Translations under genes and position numbers: made by a program
From: Terriglobales bacterium
GTDB lineage: Bacteria; Acidobacteriota; Terriglobia; Terriglobales; Acidobacteriaceae
Reading direction: 5' to 3'
Assembly (NCBI GenBank): GCA_025462725.1
Contig: JAOAPE010000011.1
Coordinates: 1 to 64,000 of the forward strand
Length of the DNA stretch: 64,000 bases
In this document: positions 3,749-33,672 of the stretch, one piece after another
How the letters are laid out: each line of letters starts with the position of its first letter
How positions within the stretch are numbered: position 1 is the stretch's first letter
Notes under the pieces: generated by a model
Told to the model about the DNA's origin: nothing
Database searches by the model: none
What the model saw: the letters and a program-made list of their open reading frames with translations, nothing else

Positions 3749-3900
3749 CCGAGTAATCGAGTGAGGCAATGGAATCGATCGAGATGCCCATCAATTAGAC
3801 GTTGCATTTCAACAACACACTTCTGAGATTGATCCTAAGGACACTGTTTCTTGGGATGAAGTATGAACTGCCATTGATGAAGCGCGGTGGCGGTGGCGCC

Positions 3901-4047
<147 letters not shown>

Positions 4048-4233: not shown

Positions 4234-4677
4234 ATCGTGAACGACCCATAGCCTCTGTCACAGCGCCAGTGTTAGGACTACCCAAGAATCTTTCTCCGTC
4301 TACTTACATGCGAACTCCCCAAATATCTTCCGCCAATGAACTAACAGAACTGCAAACCCGCGAAAACTTCAGCGCAGCCTCTTAAAGATACAAAAACGGA
4401 GATGATAATGCGGCAGCTACTGTCATCCAGACGGGAGCTAGGGGATCTCATGCTAGATTACCCAAGAAGAACGATATTCAGGTTGTTCCCATTCCAACTG
4501 TTGCTTAGTTACCTCAGCGCTCACATTCTTCTTCAGCTAAAGTTCAGTCTTGAAACATACAATACCTGCAAAGCCATTGTTAGAGTCTTGAGCAGGAGTC
4601 AAAGCACCTTTCTAGACTGGTTTGTAAGGTAAATTAGGGCAGAGGATACGACTGGCTAAAATCCGGTATCTCTGGGG

Positions 4678-6882: not shown

Positions 6883-7418
6883 CAACTCTCTTGATTTTCA
6901 TACTCACGGGACTGCTTTGTTCCGCCATCTCAGCCTACTTCGTAAAAGGTCAGGTATTTCCAGGCACCACTATCTCGTGCCTGCACGAGTGCACAACCCA
7001 TATAGATTTGGACGCATTTCAAAATCTCATTAATCCAGAGAACCAGCGGTTTTATGAATCCAAATTGTCTGGTGAGCAGTTAAAACGGTGGAGAAGAGAG
7101 CGCGATCGAATTGTAATGGCTTACCTCAAAGTAATTGCTTCGAATGCCGCCCGAGTTTTGTACGTGGCGCAACAGCTCCGAGAAGATCCAATCGAGAGTA
7201 CCCGAGTCGCCGCTGAGAAGGTAACAGCCTCGGCGCTTAGGCTGCGAATGAACTCGTTAGTTGCAATGGCCCGAATTCACTTGAGTCTGATATTTCCACT
7301 CCAAAGTTATGATTCCGTCTGCTGCGCGGTTGATTATCCTTCGTTTGTCTCCTCGGTGATGTGGTTGGTAATGCAACAAGATCCCAGGCAGACTACCTCA
7401 GTGCTCTCGGCACTTTAG
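6879..7418 (+). CDS. Hypothetical protein with one N-terminal membrane anchor
   Basis: A 179-residue protein with an N-terminal hydrophobic segment (TTLLIFILTGLLCSAISAYF) followed by a soluble, mostly helical part rich in Arg and Glu (KRWRRERDRIVMAYLKVI). The start was set at the ATG that overlaps the upstream stop (ATGA at 6879-6882); a longer frame upstream lacks support. Translational coupling suggests it works with the multi-pass membrane protein before it. No family is recognised. Confidence 0.65.
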   Translation: MTTLLIFILTGLLCSAISAYFVKGQVFPGTTISCLHECTTHIDLDAFQNLINPENQRFYESKLSGEQLKRWRRERDRIVMAYLKVIASNAARVLYVAQQLREDPIESTRVAAEKVTASALRLRMNSLVAMARIHLSLIFPLQSYDSVCCAVDYPSFVSSVMWLVMQQDPRQTTSVLSAL

Positions 7419-7444
7419 GCTAGTTCCTATCTCCCGGTTTTAAG

Positions 7445-7466
7445 CTTGTTCCGATTCTTGAACAAG
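7445..7466. promoter_or_regulatory. Perfect 7-bp dyad upstream of the HTH-GAF-PAS gene
   Basis: CTTGTTC at 7445-7451 and GAACAAG at 7460-7466 form a perfect inverted repeat with an 8-base spacer, about 75 bases before the GTG start at 7542. No T-run follows, so an operator is more likely than a terminator. The binding protein is unknown. Confidence 0.4.
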
Positions 7467-7541
7467 GTTCCTATGCCAAAAACGTCCTTCTGAATAAAGT
7501 TAACCTTTAGAGGTCACCGATCACGATCTAGGAACTTCGCC

Positions 7542-8660
7542 GTGATAGATGCGGGGCAAAAGATTAGCTTGAAACGGCTGTTCACATCTTGGAAAGATGT
7601 CGCCAATTATCTGGGCAAGACCACACGCACAGTGCAGCGTTGGGAAAAACATCTGGGTCTCCCTATCCACCGCCCGCCCGATCAGCCGGGCGTCATTCTT
7701 GCAAACTCCGATGAAATCGACGAATGGATTCGGGGCTGTAGATTGCTGCCAATTGCAACGCACTCAGTCAAACCCGGTACTTTGCCACGTCCTTCTGGAG
7801 GCTCGTTGCCGCGGGCTCACGCTCTGGTTATCGAAAGTATTGCGCGACAAGACACCAGTTCTGAAACTCTTGAGCTTTTAGTTCGCGCGATAGAACTAGA
7901 GCTGCAATGCAAATTCGCTTCGATCCTGCTTCTCGACAAGGGGAAACAGCGACTGATCCACGCTGCTGGGCCAAACGTTCCCAAGCCTTACAAACAAGCT
8001 GTTGACGGTCTGAAGATCGGACTGCATCAAGGTTCTTGTGGAACTGCTGCCTTCCTTGGCGAAACAGTGGTTGCGGAGAACGTGTTTGAAGATGAAGGTT
8101 GGACGAATTTCTGCGCACTCGCTCGCAAGCATGACTTCGCAGCGTGTTGGTCGACTCCGATATTAACGATTACTAAAGAGGTCATCGGTACATTCGCCAT
8201 CTACTACAGTAAACCTCATTTGCCGGATGCGAGCGAAGTACATGCTATGAGGCTAGCCTGCGATTTAGCAGCTATCGTCATGCAGTCGCAATTCCAAAAT
8301 TACATGAACAATGCTAATCATCGTTCAGGATTTATGGCGGTGGCCGAGGATTGGACCCTTACAGCTGTGAACGACGAGGCTACTCGTCTTCTAGAGCGTT
8401 CGAGGGGGAGTCTGCTTGGAAAAAACCTTTGGGACATTTTCCCAAAGGCATTGGGGTCGCTTTCCCATTCTGAGTATGAGCGAGCGCTTCGCGAGAACGT
8501 CACAGTGTTTTTTGAGACCTTCTCAGAGTCACTCGCTGAAACTTTTCTGGTCACCGCCCACCCTTACAAGGGGGGATTGTCTATTTTTTTCCGGGCTAAG
8601 GATCGGCTACACCATATGGCGAAAGCAACAGCGGATTCCTTCAACCCGATCTCGATGTGA
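7542..8660 (+). CDS. HTH-GAF-PAS sensory protein
   Basis: A 372-residue cytosolic sensor, GTG start. Residues ~12-65 form an excisionase/MerR-like helix-turn-helix (WKDVANYLGKTTRTVQRWEKHLGLP, ending DEIDEWI). Residues ~80-250 look like a GAF domain (ASILLLDKGK, GSCGTAAFLGETVVAENVFED), and residues ~260-355 a PAS domain (AVNDEATRLLERSRGSLLGKNLWDIFP). There is no kinase or output enzyme, so it probably senses a small molecule or redox state and acts through DNA binding or through the response-regulator proteins encoded just downstream. It is the first gene of the signalling block. Confidence 0.75.
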   Translation: MIDAGQKISLKRLFTSWKDVANYLGKTTRTVQRWEKHLGLPIHRPPDQPGVILANSDEIDEWIRGCRLLPIATHSVKPGTLPRPSGGSLPRAHALVIESIARQDTSSETLELLVRAIELELQCKFASILLLDKGKQRLIHAAGPNVPKPYKQAVDGLKIGLHQGSCGTAAFLGETVVAENVFEDEGWTNFCALARKHDFAACWSTPILTITKEVIGTFAIYYSKPHLPDASEVHAMRLACDLAAIVMQSQFQNYMNNANHRSGFMAVAEDWTLTAVNDEATRLLERSRGSLLGKNLWDIFPKALGSLSHSEYERALRENVTVFFETFSESLAETFLVTAHPYKGGLSIFFRAKDRLHHMAKATADSFNPISM

Positions 8661-24340: not shown

Positions 24341-25360
24341 CTACCGGGCCCCATGCTCCTGCAACAACTGCGAGACGGCGTTCTTGCGACAATTGATTGC
24401 GCGTTGTAGAGGCGTGTCACCCTTGCGGTCGCGCGCATTCACTGCCGCACCGGAATCGAGCAACGCTCGGGCGATCTCCACATTTCCCCGGCGGGCCGCC
24501 ATATGGAGCGCTGTTGCCCGTGTTACGCCGCCACACGCGTTGATGTCCGCCCCGGCTCTCACCAGCGCACGTACCACCTCGGGGCCGGTCTCCGAAGCGC
24601 ATTCGTTTGCGACGCAATAGAGCGGCGTATGGTCACCGCGACCCCGGATGTTCGGGTCCACACCAAGCCGCAGGAGTAACTCCACGACTTCCAAGCAACC
24701 TGCGCCGACGGCGAAATGCAAGAGCGTGGTTCCGGCAAAACGCCGCGTTGCAAGTGAGGGGTCGCGCTCCGCGGCGTCGATGACGAAGTGAATCAACCTC
24801 GCACGGCCGGATTGAACCATCCGCGCAAGCAATCCAACGAACACCGATGGTCGGGCGGCGAAACGTGGTGCGAGAGCGAGCGCTTCATCGTCTCGGCCTT
24901 CCACAATGGCTGCGATAACGCTGTCCAATACACGCTGCTCGCTCCAACACGCAGCCAACTCATCATGATCCGACCCGGCAATATCGCTGCCAGTGACATA
25001 GGCGGAACTGTGCGAGAAAAATTCACGAAGCGCAGTTCTGGTTGCACCATCCAATGGGGCGGCATCAAGCGTTGCCTCCATATTCCTCAACCAAGAGCGT
25101 CGCGCCTCGGCGCCAATCTGGAAGCGGGCATGAGACTCGCGCAAGCTCAGCCACCATCGGCTCTGAGTCTGCATTTCATCTCCGCCAAGAAATTGAATGA
25201 GGAAAGCGGCAAACTCTTCGGTAGCACACCTTAGGCTCTTGCCGGGGAACAACGGGCGAAGAACTGGGTCATTACCAACTCGCGCGTAAAACGCTGCCGA
25301 CAATTTCCTGCAACCCTCTTCACCACCGAGTGATTCCAGCAATGCATTACGAGCGCGCAT
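24341..25360 (-). CDS. Truncated haemoglobin-ankyrin repeat fusion
   Basis: A 339-residue cytosolic protein. Residues ~5-125 look like a group II-type truncated globin (LGGEEGCRKLSAAFYARVGNDPVLRPLFPG, later ESHARFQIG with the likely proximal His, and SWLRNMEATLD). Residues ~150-335 hold ankyrin repeats (TTLLHFAVGAGCLEVVELLLRLG, TALHMAARRGNVEIARALLDSG, DTPLQRAINCRKNAV). The globin should bind haem and O2 or NO; ankyrins bind proteins. It heads the ackA-xfp operon, which suggests a gas-sensing or protective role tied to acetyl phosphate metabolism (inference). Confidence 0.8.
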   Translation of the reverse strand: MRARNALLESLGGEEGCRKLSAAFYARVGNDPVLRPLFPGKSLRCATEEFAAFLIQFLGGDEMQTQSRWWLSLRESHARFQIGAEARRSWLRNMEATLDAAPLDGATRTALREFFSHSSAYVTGSDIAGSDHDELAACWSEQRVLDSVIAAIVEGRDDEALALAPRFAARPSVFVGLLARMVQSGRARLIHFVIDAAERDPSLATRRFAGTTLLHFAVGAGCLEVVELLLRLGVDPNIRGRGDHTPLYCVANECASETGPEVVRALVRAGADINACGGVTRATALHMAARRGNVEIARALLDSGAAVNARDRKGDTPLQRAINCRKNAVSQLLQEHGAR

Positions 25361-27070: not shown

Positions 27071-27557
27071 GCGTCGGCTATTTTCCTCGAATTTGCGTTT
27101 GCGGAATTGTCTAGCTTTGACGAGCTACTTCGGTTCTTGCAGGCAGACTGGACATAATCGGAAGATCCAGGACGCGGAGGGTATCAGGGGTTCAGCGCAG
27201 GCTCAACCGTAAGCTTCTCAGTCGCTCTAGTCAAGCTTCAAGGCGATTACGCCTGTGGCTTACGCATACCATGGACCCTGAATCGGTAGTCCGATTCCGC
27301 GCTACACCAGTCCGCCGTAGAAGGTAGATGCTGCCCGGTTTTCCTCAGTTGTTTGCGATATTCACTTGCAAAAACACCTTAATCCATGGCATGCTGAATG
27401 AACTTCTTACGAAAGGACGCCCAATTGGCAAATATGACGAAAACAAACAAAACGCCAAGCGGGCAACATCAGCCATTAAACATGCTGAGTTGCTATAGGG
27501 CGTCGTTCCGGTCGCGCTAACCGATCTCCGGCGCATTTTCCGCAAAAACTAAATACT
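27071..27557. other. Leader region upstream of the Y-RNA array
   Basis: No protein gene is supported. It contains a small hairpin (AATCGG/CCGATT near 27281-27296) and a near-match to a sigma-54 site at 27387 whose -12 GC is changed to GA. Promoters for the radical SAM gene (leftward) and for the RNA array (rightward) must lie here. Confidence 0.4.
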
Positions 27558-27626
27558 GCTGGGTGGCGCAAGCCGCGGTTACCTCGACTGTAAATCGACA
27601 ACGCCGCTGCTGTCTTTTCCCGCAGC
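27558..27626 (+). ncRNA. Possible compact Y-RNA-like RNA without a tRNA module
   Basis: Its 22-base 5' box (27564-27585) matches the same box of the RNA at 27850 at 16 of 22 positions, including GGTTAC. The 3' side ends TTTTCCC before a closing strand. GCTG-GG (27558-27563) pairs with CCC-G-CAGC (27619-27626) with one bulge. The tRNA-like part is replaced by a short hairpin (TCGA...TCGA). It is weaker than the other three copies and could be a decayed member. Confidence 0.4.
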
Positions 27627-27639
27627 TCTAACTTTCATC

Positions 27640-27747
27640 GGTCAGTGGTGATCGGATACGGATACTTCTCCGGCGAAACAGCCTTCGGGCTGTGAGGTTC
27701 GAATCCTCATGGGCGAAAGCCCTTCCGTAACCGCTTGTTCCCTGACC
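27640..27747 (+). ncRNA. Y-RNA-like RNA with reduced T-arm module
   Basis: About 108 nt. The closing stem GGTCAG (27640-27645) pairs with CTGACC (27742-27747). Next to it lie the shared 5' box TGGTGA-N8-GGATACTTC and the shared 3' box CGCTTGTTCC; an inner helix TACGG/CCGTA joins them. The head contains a UUCG-capped hairpin (CAGCC/GGCTG), a T-arm-like hairpin GAGG-TTCGAAT-CCTC, and a GAAA-capped hairpin (GGGC/GCCC). A D-arm is missing, so the tRNA mimic is reduced. The likely partner is the Ro60 protein at 29481. Ends are inferred from pairing only. Confidence 0.65.
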
Positions 27748-27764
27748 ACTGTTTCCATTTAGAC

Positions 27765-27792
27765 CCGCTGCGAGGTCTCGACCTTGCAGCGG
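27765..27792 (+). terminator. Hairpin after the second Y-RNA-like gene
   Basis: CCGCTGC (27765-27771) pairs with GCAGCGG (27786-27792), with an inner AGGTC/GACCT extension. It lies 18 bases after the RNA's closing stem. The following CAGTTATT is only weakly T-rich, so it may be a processing or partial termination signal. Confidence 0.4.
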
Positions 27793-27849
27793 CAGTTATT
27801 GTGCAAATTCATCGGCCTATTGGGCCGGCGATTACTGGTTCTTGAATTT

Positions 27850-27981
27850 GGCTGGTGGTGAAGACCACGGTTACTTCGCTTTGGGAGCGGGAGATGCAGG
27901 TTCGAATCCTGTCGCGGGAAATCATCCCCGTGTAGCTTAACGGCAAAGCGCCTCTTGTTCCGTGTCGCTTGTTCCCCAGCC
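27850..27981 (+). ncRNA. Y-RNA-like RNA with permuted tRNA-like domain
   Basis: About 132 nt. Closing stem GGCTGG (27850-27855) with CCAGCC (27976-27981); 5' box TGGTGA-N7-GGTTACTTC and 3' box CGCTTGTTCC; inner helix CACGG/CCGTG. The head is a permuted tRNA mimic: T-arm CAGG-TTCGAAT-CCTG (27897-27910), acceptor-like helix CGCGGG with CCCGTG closed by a short loop, then a D-arm GCTT-AACGGCA-AAGC (27935-27949). Known bacterial YrlA-type Y RNAs also mimic tRNA. It lies just upstream of the BCS1-like gene and may be in its transcript. A separate stem-loop flanks it at ~27801-27848. Confidence 0.75.
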
Positions 27982-28045
27982 AATTGAAATGTTGCGGGCC
28001 TTTTAGTCCGCGAAACCTCCGGCAATGGCCGGTTAGAAAGTCATT

Positions 28046-29302
28046 ATGTTCGACATTATCAAAACAATGCTGGCCGGGCACAACGAGTTCGCATCCGGCG
28101 GGCTGCTGCTCATGATCGTCGGTGGGGTCAGTGTCTGGCTGCGGGAGATTCCGCAAAGACTCTGGCACTGGCTCGTGGGACAGAGCACCATGATCGTCAC
28201 CGTGAAGGATGACGACGCCGCATTCCTGTGGGTAAAGGAGTGGTTTCTGGAGCAGACGTTTCTCGAGCGAGTTCGGCGTGTGGACTTGGACACAACGTTG
28301 CGAAGTGAACGCATTGCAATGATCCCTGCGCCGGGAAAACACTGGTTCTGGTATCGCGGCAGATTCTTTGAAGTTTGGTTCACGCGGACAGAAAACACTC
28401 GCGAAAGAACCGGCAGGCGGACAGAGTCATTCACTTTCCGGACGCTGGGACGAAAGCGGTCTGTTCTGCAACAGTTCGTTGATGACGTTATGGTCTGCCA
28501 CTTCCGGCGGCAGGGCGTGCGGTCGTACTTATATACCTATGACGACATGTGGGATTACGTGGAGGGCTACTCGCCGCGGCTGCTGGAGTCGGTGATTCTG
28601 GAACCGGGAGAGAAGGAGCTTCTGCTGAGAGATGTGGGGAATTTTCGCAAGTCGAAGCAAAGATATCAGCGCTTGGGAGTCCCGTACCATCGCGGTTATC
28701 TGATGTACGGGCCGCCGGGGACAGGGAAGACCTCGCTAGTGTCCGCATTGGCAGCGCATTTCGGACTTTCGATCTACTTGATCAACCTGGGCGAATTCAC
28801 CGACCGCGGATTAACGCGCGCGGTGAATCAGGTGCCGGGGAATTCAATCATTTTGTTCGAAGATATCGACTGCATGAAGAGCGGGCAGACGAGAATGGAA
28901 TGTGAACCTGGGGTGAGCGCCAATGCAAACACTGCTGTTCCCGCAAAGGAGAATGCTCAAAACGGAGTCACGCTTTCGGGATTGCTGAATGTGCTTGACG
29001 GTTTTTGTGCGCCGGCGGGAGTCTTGTTTGTGATGACGACAAATCATGTGGAGAAACTTGACGCGGCACTGCTGCGTCCGGGAAGGATCGACTACAAACT
29101 CTATATGGGCAGAGCGAGCGATCACCAGAAAGCGGAATTGTATCGCAGGTTTTTTCTGGAGCGATCGTGGGCGGAAGCGCAGGAATTTGTGGAGGCTTCG
29201 CAATCGGCGGAAACGATGGCGGAATTCCAAGGCCTGCTGCTGACGCTCGAGCAGGAGGGGCAATCGGATCCGATGAGAGAAAAAGAAGAGGTCTCAGCGT
29301 AA
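28046..29302 (+). CDS. BCS1-like AAA ATPase
   Basis: A 418-residue AAA protein. One probable N-terminal membrane segment (GGLLLMIVGGVSVWL, ~18-33) is followed by a BCS1-N-like domain (~35-190) and an AAA module: Walker A GPPGTGKTS (~222), Walker B IILFEDIDCM, and the terminal LLRPGRID with the arginine finger region. Mitochondrial BCS1 moves folded Rieske protein across a membrane; bacterial relatives have no settled function. A ~25-residue polar insert follows Walker B (ECEPGVSANANTAV...). The gene is sandwiched between Y-RNA-like RNAs and ends two bases before the next one, so it probably serves the Ro60 RNP system (inference). The ribosome binding site is weak. Confidence 0.85.
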   Translation: MFDIIKTMLAGHNEFASGGLLLMIVGGVSVWLREIPQRLWHWLVGQSTMIVTVKDDDAAFLWVKEWFLEQTFLERVRRVDLDTTLRSERIAMIPAPGKHWFWYRGRFFEVWFTRTENTRERTGRRTESFTFRTLGRKRSVLQQFVDDVMVCHFRRQGVRSYLYTYDDMWDYVEGYSPRLLESVILEPGEKELLLRDVGNFRKSKQRYQRLGVPYHRGYLMYGPPGTGKTSLVSALAAHFGLSIYLINLGEFTDRGLTRAVNQVPGNSIILFEDIDCMKSGQTRMECEPGVSANANTAVPAKENAQNGVTLSGLLNVLDGFCAPAGVLFVMTTNHVEKLDAALLRPGRIDYKLYMGRASDHQKAELYRRFFLERSWAEAQEFVEASQSAETMAEFQGLLLTLEQEGQSDPMREKEEVSA

Positions 29303-29303
29303 G

Positions 29304-29438
29304 TTTGTCGGTGGTGAAGACAAGGGTTACTTCAAGTCCGAGTGAGCAGGTTCGAGTCCTGTCACGGCTTTGAGCCGTGTAGCTCAATGGCAGAGCATCG
29401 GAAGGACAATTCCGTTGTCGACAAAGTTCCCCGGCAAA
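29304..29438 (+). ncRNA. Y-RNA-like RNA with permuted tRNA-like domain, upstream of Ro60
   Basis: About 135 nt, starting two bases after the ATPase stop. Closing stem TTTGTCGG (29304-29311) with CCGGCAAA (29431-29438, one G-U pair); 5' box TGGTGA-N7-GGTTACTTC; 3' side ending GTTCC; inner helix GACAA/TTGTC. The tRNA mimic is the best of the set: T-arm CAGG-TTCGAGT-CCTG, a perfect 6-bp acceptor-like helix CACGGC/GCCGTG closed by TTTGA (29363-29379), and D-arm GCTC-AATGGCA-GAGC (29382-29396). It ends 42 bases before the Ro60 start. Confidence 0.78.
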
Positions 29439-29480
29439 TGGTTTTGCATAATCGAAACTGAAGACAAAAGGAGGCAACAA

Positions 29481-30794
29481 ATGGCCAGACTAAATCTGTT
29501 GAATATTAATTTCCGACCACGCACGCACGAAGGGGCTCCCGCGAGAAATATCTCTACGGAGTTGCAACTGCGCCGGTCCGTGCTGGCCTGCCTTCTGTGG
29601 GAGAGCCAATTCTACGAAGACGGAGTCGAGATCGCAGGCCGCATCGCTGAGCTGGTGCCAAAGGTTGCTGCAGAGAAAGTTGCTGCGCTGGCGATTGAGG
29701 CGCGCGACACGATGAAGCTGCGTCACGTGCCGCTGTTGCTCGTCCGCGAGATGGCGCGGCACAAGACGCATCGTGCGCTGGTCTCGGAAACACTCGCTCG
29801 TGTAATTCAGCGAGCTGACGAACTCGCTGAGTTCGTTGCAATCTACTGGAAGGACGGGCGAGTGCCGCTTTCCGGGCAGGTGAAAAAGGGACTGGCAGCG
29901 GCGTTCCCGAAATTTGATGAGTATCAGCTTGCGAAATACGATCGCAGCGGACCCATCAAATTGCGAGACGTGCTTTTTCTTTCTCACGCCAAGCCGCGCG
30001 ACGAGGCACAAGCCGAAGTGTGGAAGAAGCTGATCGCGGGAACTCTCTCCGCACCTGACACTTGGGAAGTGGCCCTCAGCTCGGGGGCTGACAAGCGTGA
30101 GGCGTGGGAGCGATTGCTGCGGGAGCAGAAGCTGGGTGCGATGGCGTTGCTCCGCAACTTGCGCAACCTGCGTGATGTGGGAGTGGAGGAATCGTTAGTG
30201 CTCGCAGCACTTGATGCAATGAGTTCCAAGCGAGTGTTGCCTTTCCGTTTTCTGGCCGCGGCGCGTTATGCTCCGCAGTGGGAAGAGGCGCTTGAGAAGG
30301 CGATGCTGAAGTGCGTTGCTGAAGCGGAGAAGTTGCCGGGCAAGACGGTTGTGCTGGTTGACGTCTCAGGTTCAATGACTGCGCCGCTTTCGCGTCGCTC
30401 TGAGATGCAGCGCACAGACGCGGCATACGGACTGGCGGTGCTTCTGCGGGAAATCGCCGAGGCAGTCGCCGTGTATAGCTTCTCTGGCGAACTGGTACAG
30501 GTGCCGGCACGTCGGGGGTTCGCTCTGCGCGATGCGATTGACAGTTCGCAAAACCACAACGGCACACAGCTGGGTAAGGCGGTGGACAAACTTTACCGGG
30601 TTGAGAAGCTTGACCGTTTGATCGTTATTACCGACGAACAGTCGCATGACAGCGTGCCCGCGCCGAAGGGCCGCGGTTACGTGATCAATGTGGCGAGTCA
30701 CCGGAACGGTGTGGGCTATGGCAAGTGGATGCACATCGATGGCTGGAGTGAGGGCGTGATCGAGTACATCCGTGCGCTGGAGCAGAAGGCCTGA
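29481..30794 (+). CDS. rsr: Ro60/Rsr ortholog (TROVE-vWA RNA-binding protein)
   Basis: A 437-residue cytosolic ring-shaped RNA-binding protein. Residues ~1-270 are the helical TROVE repeats (starting near STELQLRRSVLACLLWE), and ~285-437 a von Willebrand A domain with a complete MIDAS: DVSGSM at 294-299, a later conserved Thr in NGTQLG, and ITDEQSHD. Bacterial Ro60 binds Y RNA and structured or misfolded RNA and can work with PNPase. The ATG at 29481 was chosen over an upstream frame because AAAAGGAGG lies six bases before it and the longer frame would run through the Y-RNA-like gene. No rtcB or rtcA gene is near, unlike in Salmonella. Confidence 0.93.
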   Translation: MARLNLLNINFRPRTHEGAPARNISTELQLRRSVLACLLWESQFYEDGVEIAGRIAELVPKVAAEKVAALAIEARDTMKLRHVPLLLVREMARHKTHRALVSETLARVIQRADELAEFVAIYWKDGRVPLSGQVKKGLAAAFPKFDEYQLAKYDRSGPIKLRDVLFLSHAKPRDEAQAEVWKKLIAGTLSAPDTWEVALSSGADKREAWERLLREQKLGAMALLRNLRNLRDVGVEESLVLAALDAMSSKRVLPFRFLAAARYAPQWEEALEKAMLKCVAEAEKLPGKTVVLVDVSGSMTAPLSRRSEMQRTDAAYGLAVLLREIAEAVAVYSFSGELVQVPARRGFALRDAIDSSQNHNGTQLGKAVDKLYRVEKLDRLIVITDEQSHDSVPAPKGRGYVINVASHRNGVGYGKWMHIDGWSEGVIEYIRALEQKA

Positions 30795-30853
30795 AAGATA
30801 CCTGCGTTAGCTTCGCGAACGTGGGTACCCGCGAGTAAGAGGTGGAGCGTGGA

Positions 30854-30882
30854 GGGCAGGCAGAGATTGCCTGCCCTTCGCG
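30854..30882 (+). terminator. Probable terminator of the Ro60 unit
   Basis: GGGCAGGCA (30854-30862) pairs perfectly with TGCCTGCCC (30868-30876) around a 5-base loop, 60 bases after the Ro60 stop. Only a weak T-run follows (TTCGCGTTTCT). Confidence 0.55.
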
Positions 30883-30957
30883 TTTCTATCGCGCGGGACG
30901 TGCTTGGTGCAAGAAGCTTTTAAGGTTAAAATGCGCGGACATTCTTCAGGGTGATAA

Positions 30958-33672
30958 ATGGCTTTGGCTGCGGGAACCCGCCTGGGTGCCTATGAGATCG
31001 TCGGTCCGCTTGGAGCGGGTGGGATGGGTGAGGTTTATCGCGGTCGCGATACGCGCCTCGACCGCACCGTCGCGATCAAAGTACTGAATTCGCAACTTGT
31101 AGTCAGTCCGGAATTAAAGGCGCGATTCGAGCGCGAAGCCAAAGTCATCTCACAGCTTCAGCATCCGCACATTTGCACTCTGTACGACGTGGGCTCCGAC
31201 AACGGCACTGAATTCCTGGTGATGGAATTTCTGGAAGGCGAGTCGTTATCTGAACGGCTCAAACGTGGTCCGTTGCCAAGCGACGAACTTCTAAAAGTGG
31301 CGATTGCGTTGGCGGACGCGCTGGATAAGGCGCATCGCGCGGGAATCATTCATCGCGATCTGAAGCCGGGCAATGTGATGCTGACGAAATCCGGCGCGAA
31401 GCTGCTCGATTTCGGTCTGGCGAAATCTATGGGTGCGGCCGCGGTTGGTGCGGCGAGTAATGCTTCCGCGTCAGTCTTCGCGGGGGCGTTGACGCAAACC
31501 AGTCCGGCTGGATCGCCGGTGTCGCCTTTGTCGAGTGCGGGCGCAGTGATCGGCACCATACAGTACATGGCCCCGGAACAGATCCAAGGACTTGAAGCGG
31601 ACGCTCGCTCGGACATATTTGGTTTCGGCGTGATGTTGTACGAGACTGCCACCGGCAAACGGGCGTTCGAGGGCAAGACACAGTCCAGTATTGTTGGACA
31701 GATCCTGGCGGTGGAGCCGCCGCCGCTCAGTTCGATACAGCCATTGGCGCCCGCTGGCCTGAGCAACCTGGTGCGTAGTTGCCTCGAAAAAGATCCGAAC
31801 GAGCGTTTTCAAACCATTCATGACGTGAAGCTGCGACTGCTTGAAATGGCAGAGACGCAGAAGTCGGGGACAGCGCAGTCAGCCACTGCGGCTCCATCAA
31901 AAAGCGCGCGGTTGATTTGGATCTCGACGGTCGCGGTGTTGGTGGTTGCATTGGCGACACTGTTCGCGGTGTCGCTTGGACGCAAGGCTGCGCAGCCCGA
32001 AGTGACACGATTCCAAGTGGACATGGCACCGTTGCAGATTGTGTTGCAGGCGGTGGGAAGCAGGCTGGCGATATCGCCCGACGGGCGAACCGTAGTCATG
32101 ATCCTGCATGGCGATACCAGCAAAGCCCAACTTTATGTGCGCAAGCTGGACAGTTTGGAACTTGTTCCGCTGCCGGGAACCGAAGGCGCAATGCAACCAT
32201 TCTTCTCGCCTGATGGCAAATGGGTGGGCTTTTCCGCGAGAGGTAAGCTGAAGAAGATACCTTTGGCGGGAGGTGTCCCGGTGACGATCTGCGAACTTCC
32301 GGGCGCAGATCAATCGGCAACATGGGGCGATAACGGCACGATCGTCTTCGATACATTCTTAGGGCCACTCAGCATTGTGCCAGCCGAAGGCGGAACCCCG
32401 GTGCGTGTTGACACGGGAAAAGAGAATTACCGCTGGCCTGTGTATTTGCCCGGCAGCCGCGCACTGCTGGCCATGGTGAGACGCGAGGGGCGCTTTGATA
32501 TCGATGTCATCCAATTGGATTCGCACAAGACCGAGAATCTCATTAGAGACGGAAGCTGGGCACGATATCTCTCGAGTGGGCGCATCGTGTATGCACAATA
32601 CAGCTCGGGCACGGATGCTTCGGGATTTACCGGTGGTCTGCTTTCCGTTCCGTTTGATCTAAGAAAACTCAAACGGACAGGCGCGTCAGAGCCGGTATTG
32701 CAAGATGTTCAAGTGGGAAGCGGTGGCGCAGGCTTCTTTGACATGTCGCCCAATGGCACCATCGCGTACGTGCCCGGCGCGGCAGAGACCCAATTGCTAA
32801 TGGATCTTATGTGGCTGGATCGTTCAGGGAAGGTCACGGAAGCAGGTGCTCCGCTGCACCATTTCCACGATATAAGGCTTTCGCCAGATGGAAAGCGCGT
32901 GCTTTTCACGATGATGGATAGTTCTGACCTTTACACCTACGACCTAGGACGCAAGACGCTGCAGCGCCTTACGTTCGACAAGCATAGCCAGGCGGGTATT
33001 TTCACTCCTGACGGCAAACGAATCATTTACTTTTCCAATGCGGTTCCGCCGCAGCAGTTGTGGTCAAAACCGTCGGACGGCGGCGGTGAGGCAGTACCCA
33101 TTGCACATTCCGAATTCTCGCCGGTACCGGACTCGGTCTCCCCGGATGGAGCTACCCTGGCATATTCGGAACTGCATCCGGGCACCGGTAATGATATTTA
33201 CCTGGCTTCGCTGCAGGGCGATCCCGCACCGCGTCCGTTCGTCAACACGCCGTTTTCCGAAGGCTATCCCGCGTTTTCTCCGGATGGAAAGTTTATTGCC
33301 TACTCCTCGAATGAAACCGGAGAGAGGCAAGTCTACGTGCAGAGTTTGCAGAAAGACGCCGGGAAATGGCAAGTCTCAAGCGGCGAAGGTTTTCGTCCTC
33401 GGTGGTCGCACGATGGGAAGAAGTTGTACTACGCTGCTGAAGGCAGAAAGTTGATGGAGGTGGACGTGAACACCAACGCGGGCTTTACGGCGGGGACCCC
33501 ACGCTTAATCTTCGAACTGACAGACTTCGGTCACGGTGGTTATGATGTGACCAGCGATGGGCGAGTCATCTGGGCAAAATCGTCGAGTTCCGGCTCAAAG
33601 TTGAACGTATTGAGGGTCATCGAGAACTTCGACACGGAGATCGCGCGGCGAGTGTCCGCGCCGCAACACTAA
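30958..33672 (+). CDS. Ser/Thr protein kinase with TolB-like beta-propeller
   Basis: A 904-residue membrane kinase of the PknB type. Cytosolic kinase domain at ~10-270 (LGAGGMGEVYRGRD glycine loop, VAIKVL lysine, HRDLKPGNVML catalytic loop, DFGLAKS, APEQIQG), one TM at ~317-340 (WISTVAVLVVALATLFAVSL), and an external part at ~355-895 built from WD40/TolB-like blades (repeated SPDGK, TPDGKRI, FSPDGKFIAYSS). The propeller should bind an extracellular or periplasmic ligand or protein. The ATG at 30958 lies close to a short GGTGA. A second kinase follows after 66 bases. Confidence 0.93.
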   Translation: MALAAGTRLGAYEIVGPLGAGGMGEVYRGRDTRLDRTVAIKVLNSQLVVSPELKARFEREAKVISQLQHPHICTLYDVGSDNGTEFLVMEFLEGESLSERLKRGPLPSDELLKVAIALADALDKAHRAGIIHRDLKPGNVMLTKSGAKLLDFGLAKSMGAAAVGAASNASASVFAGALTQTSPAGSPVSPLSSAGAVIGTIQYMAPEQIQGLEADARSDIFGFGVMLYETATGKRAFEGKTQSSIVGQILAVEPPPLSSIQPLAPAGLSNLVRSCLEKDPNERFQTIHDVKLRLLEMAETQKSGTAQSATAAPSKSARLIWISTVAVLVVALATLFAVSLGRKAAQPEVTRFQVDMAPLQIVLQAVGSRLAISPDGRTVVMILHGDTSKAQLYVRKLDSLELVPLPGTEGAMQPFFSPDGKWVGFSARGKLKKIPLAGGVPVTICELPGADQSATWGDNGTIVFDTFLGPLSIVPAEGGTPVRVDTGKENYRWPVYLPGSRALLAMVRREGRFDIDVIQLDSHKTENLIRDGSWARYLSSGRIVYAQYSSGTDASGFTGGLLSVPFDLRKLKRTGASEPVLQDVQVGSGGAGFFDMSPNGTIAYVPGAAETQLLMDLMWLDRSGKVTEAGAPLHHFHDIRLSPDGKRVLFTMMDSSDLYTYDLGRKTLQRLTFDKHSQAGIFTPDGKRIIYFSNAVPPQQLWSKPSDGGGEAVPIAHSEFSPVPDSVSPDGATLAYSELHPGTGNDIYLASLQGDPAPRPFVNTPFSEGYPAFSPDGKFIAYSSNETGERQVYVQSLQKDAGKWQVSSGEGFRPRWSHDGKKLYYAAEGRKLMEVDVNTNAGFTAGTPRLIFELTDFGHGGYDVTSDGRVIWAKSSSSGSKLNVLRVIENFDTEIARRVSAPQH

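Follow-up and report, generated by a model that had tools for sequence, protein, structure and literature searches.

Our analysis suggests that a 64,000-nucleotide (nt) stretch of a Terriglobales bacterium genome (contig JAOAPE010000011.1, positions 1 to 64,000; hereafter the window) probably carries an operon for a bacterial Ro60 (Rsr) protein and its Y RNAs, in which an array of four RNAs with differing heads, including anticodon-type loops, would place tRNA mimics on the Ro60 protein. The RNA set, its position 5' of the TROVE (Ro60) gene, the covariation of its helices, its spread over Acidobacteriota, Alphaproteobacteria and phages, and the anticodon-type loops with their nearly free anticodon letters are established, and the array appears to form one operon. 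The window is part of a 4.33 Mb genome in which a genome search gave a sole TROVE match, the gene at 29481-30794. All genes of the locus lie on the + strand, in the order of three Y-like RNAs, a BCS1-type ATPase, a fourth Y-like RNA and the Ro60 gene, as listed here (amino-acid names for loops, here and below, are standard-code labels only):

27554-27632, + strand: mini Y RNA, with a Ro60-type end stem and a 4-bp stem bearing the 7-nt loop CUGUAAA (Tyr GUA type)
27636-27753, + strand: Deinococcus-like Y RNA, with end stem, UUCG-capped hairpin, T-arm-like hairpin and short acceptor-like hairpin
27846-27987, + strand: YrlA-like Y RNA with an extra arm, comprising a permuted T arm, acceptor hairpin and D arm, and an added 5-bp stem with the 7-nt loop UUUGGGA
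28046-29302, + strand: BCS1-type AAA ATPase of 418 residues, BCS1_N and AAA above the Pfam cut-offs
29302-29442, + strand: YrlA-like Y RNA without anticodon-type loop, directly 5' of the Ro60 gene
29481-30794, + strand: TROVE-vWA (Ro60/Rsr) protein of 437 residues, TROVE above the Pfam cut-off

The protein encoded at 29481-30794 combines TROVE with a vWA part carrying the DxSxS motif. It matches the solved TROVE proteins 9L5Y and 9KOP with an E-value (E) of 1e-28, DVSGSM being aligned with DVSGSM, and its vWA part scores below the cut-offs (VWA_2 26.3 vs 27 bits, E 1.2e-5; vWA_Ro60 22.3 vs 27.7 bits, E 1.4e-4). Y RNA genes with a closing end stem adjoin the Ro60 gene. The RNAs were searched with a covariance model (R1) built from 28 RNAs of the window and related loci, hand-picked from a larger list, with the window's third and fourth RNAs (27846 and 29302) in the training set and the other two outside it. 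R1 finds all four, with E 7.2e-5 (32.4 bits) and 7.5e-7 for the first and second RNA and E 9.4e-27 and 5.6e-22 for the third and fourth, and with a limit of E 1 the 64 kb contain a single further match, of E 0.74. A sequence-only reading of the window, made by a model without database searches, had proposed a Ro60-Y RNA locus with a BCS1-like ATPase and several tRNA-mimicking RNAs at 27640, 27850 and 29304, with a weaker one at 27558; the domain matches and R1 agree with it, two of the RNAs being recovered from outside the training set, and the box TGGTGA-N7/8-GG(A/T)TACTTC that it described is present in the RNAs at 27640, 27850 and 29304. Rfam gave partial matches for three of the RNAs: YrlA (RF02553) matches the fourth RNA at 29317-29424 (43.6 bits, E 6.8e-7) and the third at 27855-27982 (30.1 bits, E 0.0056), and Deinococcus Y RNA (RF01053) matches the second at 27640-27750 (22.5 bits, E 4.8), all under the gathering score. 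The YrlA gathering score (69 bits) is reached by no window RNA, 0 YrlA matches were found at this score in 10 related loci, and the Rfam search gave no match for the mini RNA up to E 5.

Free-energy z-scores are -3.7, -2.3 and -2.8 for the second, third and fourth RNA and only -1.0 for the mini RNA, for which the case is therefore comparative and not energetic. In the mini RNA the 4-bp stem has pair probabilities of 0.92-1.0, and its loop CUGUAAA equals the loop of the host tRNA-Tyr letter for letter, whereas the third RNA, with anticodon UGG (Pro type), has a loop (UUUGGGA) that differs from that of the host tRNA-Pro(UGG). ARAGORN reports no tRNA in the window, i.e., no cloverleaf was recognised in native order. 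Conservation of the RNA helices in related genomes, for which the sequence-only reading had proposed a covariance-model check, is evident from the alignment, in which 95.6% of helix cells are paired, 18 pairs are changed on both sides, and 117 double-change cells are seen, whereas shuffled alignments give 36 and slid controls 13 to 27.

The same kind of locus is widespread. A TROVE protein scan of species genomes gave 30 loci from Acidobacteriota, Bradyrhizobium, Hyphomicrobiales and Hyphomonadaceae, the closest being those of Acidobacteriota, and TROVE was found in 29/120 genomes of the order. Our locus set comprises 57 TROVE loci including the window, after removal of L065 and L066 as duplicates, some of them from near-identical genomes (e.g., L020 and L072) that are counted separately. 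One to six Y RNAs are present at 55/57 of these loci, the two without a match (L008 and L028) having merely 435 and 1 upstream bases, and a regular expression for the Y RNAs matches solely upstream of TROVE and on the TROVE strand. For the loci as a whole, 193/201 R1 matches were retained and eight at E 0.02-0.74 were discarded; one match of E 0.11 flanking the BCS1 gene of L123 was kept. In a class sample of 399 genomes, TROVE (E <= 1e-20) occurs in 44 and Y RNA (E <= 1e-6, strict filters) in 45, namely in 38/44 genomes with TROVE vs 7/355 without. Having several such RNAs at one locus is the norm for this group of Ro60 genes. Downstream of TROVE, no gene family is common to more than five loci. 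In the Y RNA array of L006, an Rfam Acido-Lenti-1 RNA (4276-4322, - strand; 42.5 bits, above the gathering score) lies antisense to the array. A plasmid of Deinococcus gobiensis (L200) has one Y RNA match (3844-3980, 101 bits) just 5' of a TROVE gene whose protein is 57% identical to that of the window.

Phages carry such arrays as well. TROVE was matched in 89/50,697 phage records, and in all four phage records examined R1 finds Y RNA arrays immediately 5' of the TROVE gene:

Xanthomonas phage 10KY502B: three Y RNAs
Brevundimonas phage Gurke: six Y RNAs, one at E 0.009
Brevundimonas phage Bambus: four Y RNAs
Caulobacter phage CcrColossus: eight Y RNAs

At least one Y RNA match was found in 10/10 viral contigs examined. 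A second set of R1 matches from bacterial, plasmid and phage loci retained 70/77 (five came from the already-counted contigs L176 and L177 and two weak ones were dropped); a 7-nt loop was found in 33 of the 70 under a laxer rule that accepted 3-bp stems, with U33 in 27 and purine 37 in 24. Phage or viral-contig loci contribute 44 of these 70 RNAs, of which 21 have a 7-nt loop and about eight a clear 4-5 bp stem as judged by eye. Phage tRNA annotations (tRNA-Thr, tRNA-Ser, tRNA-Gln) coincide with some R1 matches, and since annotated tRNAs overlap Y RNA matches beside TROVE (L196 3792-3859, L197 3817-3891, L199 3173-3240), some phage features labelled as tRNAs may instead be Y RNAs.

A stem of 4-5 bp capped by a 7-nt loop of anticodon type occurs in many of the RNAs, either as the sole head or added to the permuted tRNA module, a feature that the sequence-only reading does not mention. 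The arm lies 3' of the box GG(A/U)UACUUC in the layout UUCGN-7nt-NCGGG, or UCGN-7nt-NCGA in short RNAs, and was found in Acidobacteriota, Alphaproteobacteria and phage loci. When 48 RNAs were picked by box-to-T-arm spacing only, 31 formed a 7-nt loop closed by three or more base pairs, vs a mean of 10.7/48 and a maximum of 18 in 2000 shuffled controls. The covariation score of the arm is 0.411 vs at most 0.146 for slid pairings, with the innermost pair seen as C-G, A-U, G-C and U-A, and that of the mini RNA arm is 0.172 vs at most 0.124 (34/36 mini RNAs aligned, two poorly anchored ones being dropped and one re-anchored by 3 nt). The best stem of 182 anchored RNAs encloses a 7-nt loop in 53, the commonest size, and a loop of other size in 65. 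Position 33 of the 53 seven-nt loops is U in 44 and position 37 is a purine in 47, as in tRNA, and the entropy at positions 34, 35 and 36 is 1.55, 1.95 and 1.97 bits; with 33 and 37 kept and 34-36 nearly free, the loops follow the pattern of anticodon loops in which the anticodon itself changes. Outside the anticodon, the mini RNAs of L006 and L027 share 97% identity, yet they have GUU and GAG, respectively; the near-identical longer RNAs of L020 and L072 both have GUU. Loops identical to one of 43 host tRNA loops number 14/53 vs 6.4 on average after column shuffling (at most 14 in 5000), an excess that is suggestive only. Un-permuted by rotation, 34/55 RNAs score as tRNA in ARAGORN vs 4/55 in native order, the sample being the 55 of 133 long RNAs that had the required landmarks.

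Several observations weigh against an operon of RNAs with anticodon-type heads. The anticodon-type loop is absent from many RNAs, 64 of the 182 anchored ones forming no stem in addition to the 65 with another loop size. The third RNA prefers a different structure in free folding, at -52.4 vs -43.4 kcal/mol for the best hand-written comparative fold, and its anticodon-type arm, which is backed by comparison, has a pair probability below 0.01 in free folding. ARAGORN was also positive for 115/275 controls with a shuffled arm and is therefore not specific for the arm; its result backs the permuted core instead. Seven genomes of the class sample give a Y RNA match without TROVE, and no sigma-70-like promoter was detected in 27100-31000.

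It is also possible, though we think it the less probable outcome, that the anticodon-type loops are functionless, drifting relics of tRNA ancestry. The T, acceptor and D parts of the Y RNAs appear tRNA-derived, and the variability of the anticodon letters is on a par with that at the ends of aligned stretches: in alignments of 10 mini and 23 longer RNAs, hand-picked from larger lists, 14/76 and 11/136 of the other columns, respectively, reach or exceed the mean variability of the anticodon, and several of these columns lie at such ends. Drift of this kind sits poorly with the retention of positions 33 and 37 while 34-36 vary, with the covariation of the arm stems, with the arm being the sole head retained in mini RNAs and with its spread over Acidobacteriota, Alphaproteobacteria and phage loci.

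The second gene of the locus to be considered is the BCS1-type ATPase. It is full length, its PDB matches are mitochondrial BCS1 (6SH3, 6UKO and others; best E 3e-55), and its N-terminal stretch is hydrophobic as judged by eye. The sequence-only reading had put forward a multi-RNA set linked with BCS1 as the new feature of the locus and had suggested that the ATPase might load, unfold or move the ribonucleoprotein (RNP) or its RNA cargo. The adjacency is not unique to this genome: a BCS1 ortholog lies upstream of TROVE on the same strand at 9/57 loci (the window, L003, L007, L010, L011, L014, L027, L064 and L067), with its end 0.2-2.2 kb from TROVE. Co-occurrence of the genes, which that reading had also proposed to check, is seen in the class sample, where a BCS1 ortholog (E <= 1e-60) is present in 11/399 genomes, 7/11 of which also have TROVE vs 44/399 overall (odds ratio 16.6, Fisher p = 3e-5, with related genomes not being independent); the two genes are adjacent in 4 of these 7. 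In a tree of 73 TROVE proteins, all eight BCS1 rows long enough to be placed fall in one strongly supported clade of 16, a pattern that the tree tool's own count of changes, made between labelled rows only, does not bring out. A single clade together with the enrichment in the class sample indicates that the BCS1-TROVE link is real but lineage-restricted, and BCS1 would be a clade-restricted accessory of the Ro60 locus. The RNA set, in contrast, is not tied to BCS1, as Y RNAs are found at 55/57 loci vs BCS1 at 9/57. The sequence-only reading as a whole is thus partly supported.

Whether BCS1 actually works within the Ro60 RNP, as a membrane-bound AAA ring by which Ro60 or its RNA is loaded, remodelled or moved, is a separate matter, and we consider such a role conceivable but doubtful. 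Beyond the proximity and enrichment described above, it would fit the two weak Y RNA matches (E 0.001 and 0.11, apparently truncated) on both sides of BCS1 in L123, whose genome has no TROVE match. However, BCS1 was not seen near 48/57 TROVE loci, some with little upstream sequence available, and within its own 16-row clade it is patchy, rows with and without it being interleaved. In L007 the gene is divided between reading frames and in L027 it is fragmented, which may reflect sequence error or gaps, and 4/11 BCS1 genomes have no TROVE match. Among seven loci with BCS1 away from TROVE (L122-L125, L173-L175), Y RNA matches occur in L123 alone. The cargo of known BCS1 is a folded protein (PMC11143374, consulted in part), and BCS1 and TROVE of nine Brevundimonas/Caulobacter jumbo-phage records (RefSeq copies uncounted) lie some 55-75 kb apart.

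Bacterial Y RNAs are known to tether PNPase. The end stem and inner boxes of a Y RNA are expected to hold it on the Ro60 ring, and in the operon proposed here the shared end stem and inner boxes would hold each of the four RNAs there. The heads differ: an anticodon-type stem-loop by itself in the first RNA, a head like that of Deinococcus Y RNA in the second, a permuted tRNA module plus anticodon-type arm in the third and a plain YrlA-like module in the fourth. Such interchangeable tRNA-mimic heads could present Ro60 to tRNA-binding enzymes or keep it from them, and, as the heads differ, Ro60 is perhaps offered to several of these enzymes. The first candidate partner would be PNPase, as in Deinococcus RYPER, and the second would be enzymes acting on anticodon loops. 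A PNPase domain match was found in the window genome and RtcB gave no match there (the same search was positive in 9/14 genomes as a control); with this pair of results, a role in RNA decay or quality control may fit better than an RtcB repair operon. From the sequences, tRNA mimicry or decoy action on the Ro60 RNP, perhaps with PNPase, would be the putative function. If the heads carry real anticodon loops, the displayed anticodons would be a direct clue to the targets, testable by a three-letter swap, and the Caulobacter and Xanthomonas phages with similar arrays would be genetic systems for study.

A narrower version, in which the loops are decoys or baits for anticodon-loop enzymes such as anticodon nucleases and the anticodons change in an arms race, seems unlikely to us. 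The anticodon swap between the close relatives L006 and L027 and the similar arrays in phages would suit it, and YrlA has been proposed as a possible competitive inhibitor of anticodon nuclease (PMC7790460, consulted in part). On the other side, the same part of that source describes YrlA fragments as undetected and hence YrlA as uncut, and the variability of the anticodons is not above that of the flanking letters; diversifying selection or an arms race is unsupported because the anticodon columns are no more variable than stretch ends. In the broadest version, Ro60 RNPs, bacterial and phage alike, would present a set of anticodon stem-loops whose anticodons can be swapped and which serve as bait, decoy or sensor for anticodon-loop enzymes. 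The tRNA identities shown by the array would then evolve, and Ro60 would be a platform that acts on a bound or cut bait; we offer this version as speculation that is probably wrong in this full form. That the RNAs are decayed ordinary tRNA genes is most improbable and was rejected on helix covariation: a few score as tRNA (3 matches above cut-off in 10 loci, besides the low native-order ARAGORN count) and some phage copies are annotated as tRNA-Thr, -Ser or -Gln, but ARAGORN finds no tRNA in the window and both the Y RNA helices and the place 5' of TROVE are conserved.

The commonest upstream neighbour of TROVE is a protein of about 110 residues, found at 37/57 loci and invariably on the TROVE strand, which together with BCS1 is a candidate Ro60 partner. 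Four cysteines are invariant across ten aligned copies, the first pair spaced CxxC, and zinc binding would be a guess from these cysteines; some copies, e.g., those of L007 and L010, have a hydrophobic N-terminal stretch as judged by eye. The sequence-only reading could not have seen this protein, as the window genome gives no match to it at E <= 1e-6. It occurs in 57/399 class genomes, 29 with TROVE and 28 without, and is therefore not exclusive to Ro60. Family searches gave nothing in Pfam (one copy) or in PHROGs and PADLOC (three copies), NCBIfam gave one weak YcgN-type match (E 0.014) for four copies, and an AlphaFold model had a mean pLDDT of 46 and was not used. BCS1 and four-cysteine genes are neighbours in L007 and L010; among the seven loci with BCS1 away from TROVE the four-cysteine protein occurs in L122 alone, where BCS1 (7001-8218) is directly followed by it (8232-8558) in a genome without TROVE match and with no Y RNA match nearby, a pairing that also speaks against BCS1 being part of the Ro60 RNP. 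In another TROVE-less genome a four-cysteine gene (G068:C2:1369463-1369914) has a Y RNA match just upstream (E 5.8e-12).

Elsewhere in the window, a 12-bp hairpin at 27765-27792, between the second and third RNA, was flagged as terminator-like; terminator-like sites in the region are not more frequent than in shuffled sequence. A single protein encoded at 24341-25360 (- strand) combines a bacterial globin domain with ankyrin repeats.

The locus can be compared with several known systems. Bacterial Y RNA has been superposed on tRNAs via circular permutation (PMC11472068, consulted in part), so the permutation of the tRNA module is already known, and for a Listeria phage Y RNAs have been suggested close to an Rsr-like gene (PMC12282133, consulted in part), so phage Ro60-Y RNA loci are known as well. 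Among the literature matches listed, no title or abstract start links Ro60/TROVE with BCS1 or AAA, or bacterial Y RNAs with an anticodon; the novelty of the anticodon arm in Y RNAs, and of larger arrays, is unproven. Mitochondrial BCS1 has the same BCS1_N and AAA domains as the window's ATPase, and its genomic partners differ. In jumbo phages TROVE and BCS1 families are both named (PMC7824862, consulted in part), but in separate systems, and in the nine jumbo-phage records the two are not adjacent, unlike in the window. The Salmonella rsr-yrlBA-rtcBA RNA repair operon also combines a Ro60 gene with at least two Y RNAs (PMC7790460, in the part consulted), but differs from the window genome, which has no RtcB match. 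As for the RNA families, the box GGUUaCuuC is part of the Deinococcus Y RNA consensus RF01053, and the YrlA consensus RF02553 has no room for an anticodon arm in an alignment judged by eye. Closest in likeness are bacterial RNPs of Ro60 (Rsr) with YrlA and the RYPER machine of Deinococcus, which likewise have TROVE-vWA, adjacent Y RNAs, an end stem and a D/T/acceptor-like module (PMC8394870, consulted in part); going by PMC8394870 and general Ro60 biology, the tRNA-like head of the Y RNA would engage PNPase and the end stem would sit on the Ro60 ring. In contrast to these systems, the loci described here have arrays in which R1 finds as many as six RNAs in bacteria and eight in phages, anticodon-type arms, and a BCS1 or four-cysteine gene among the RNAs.

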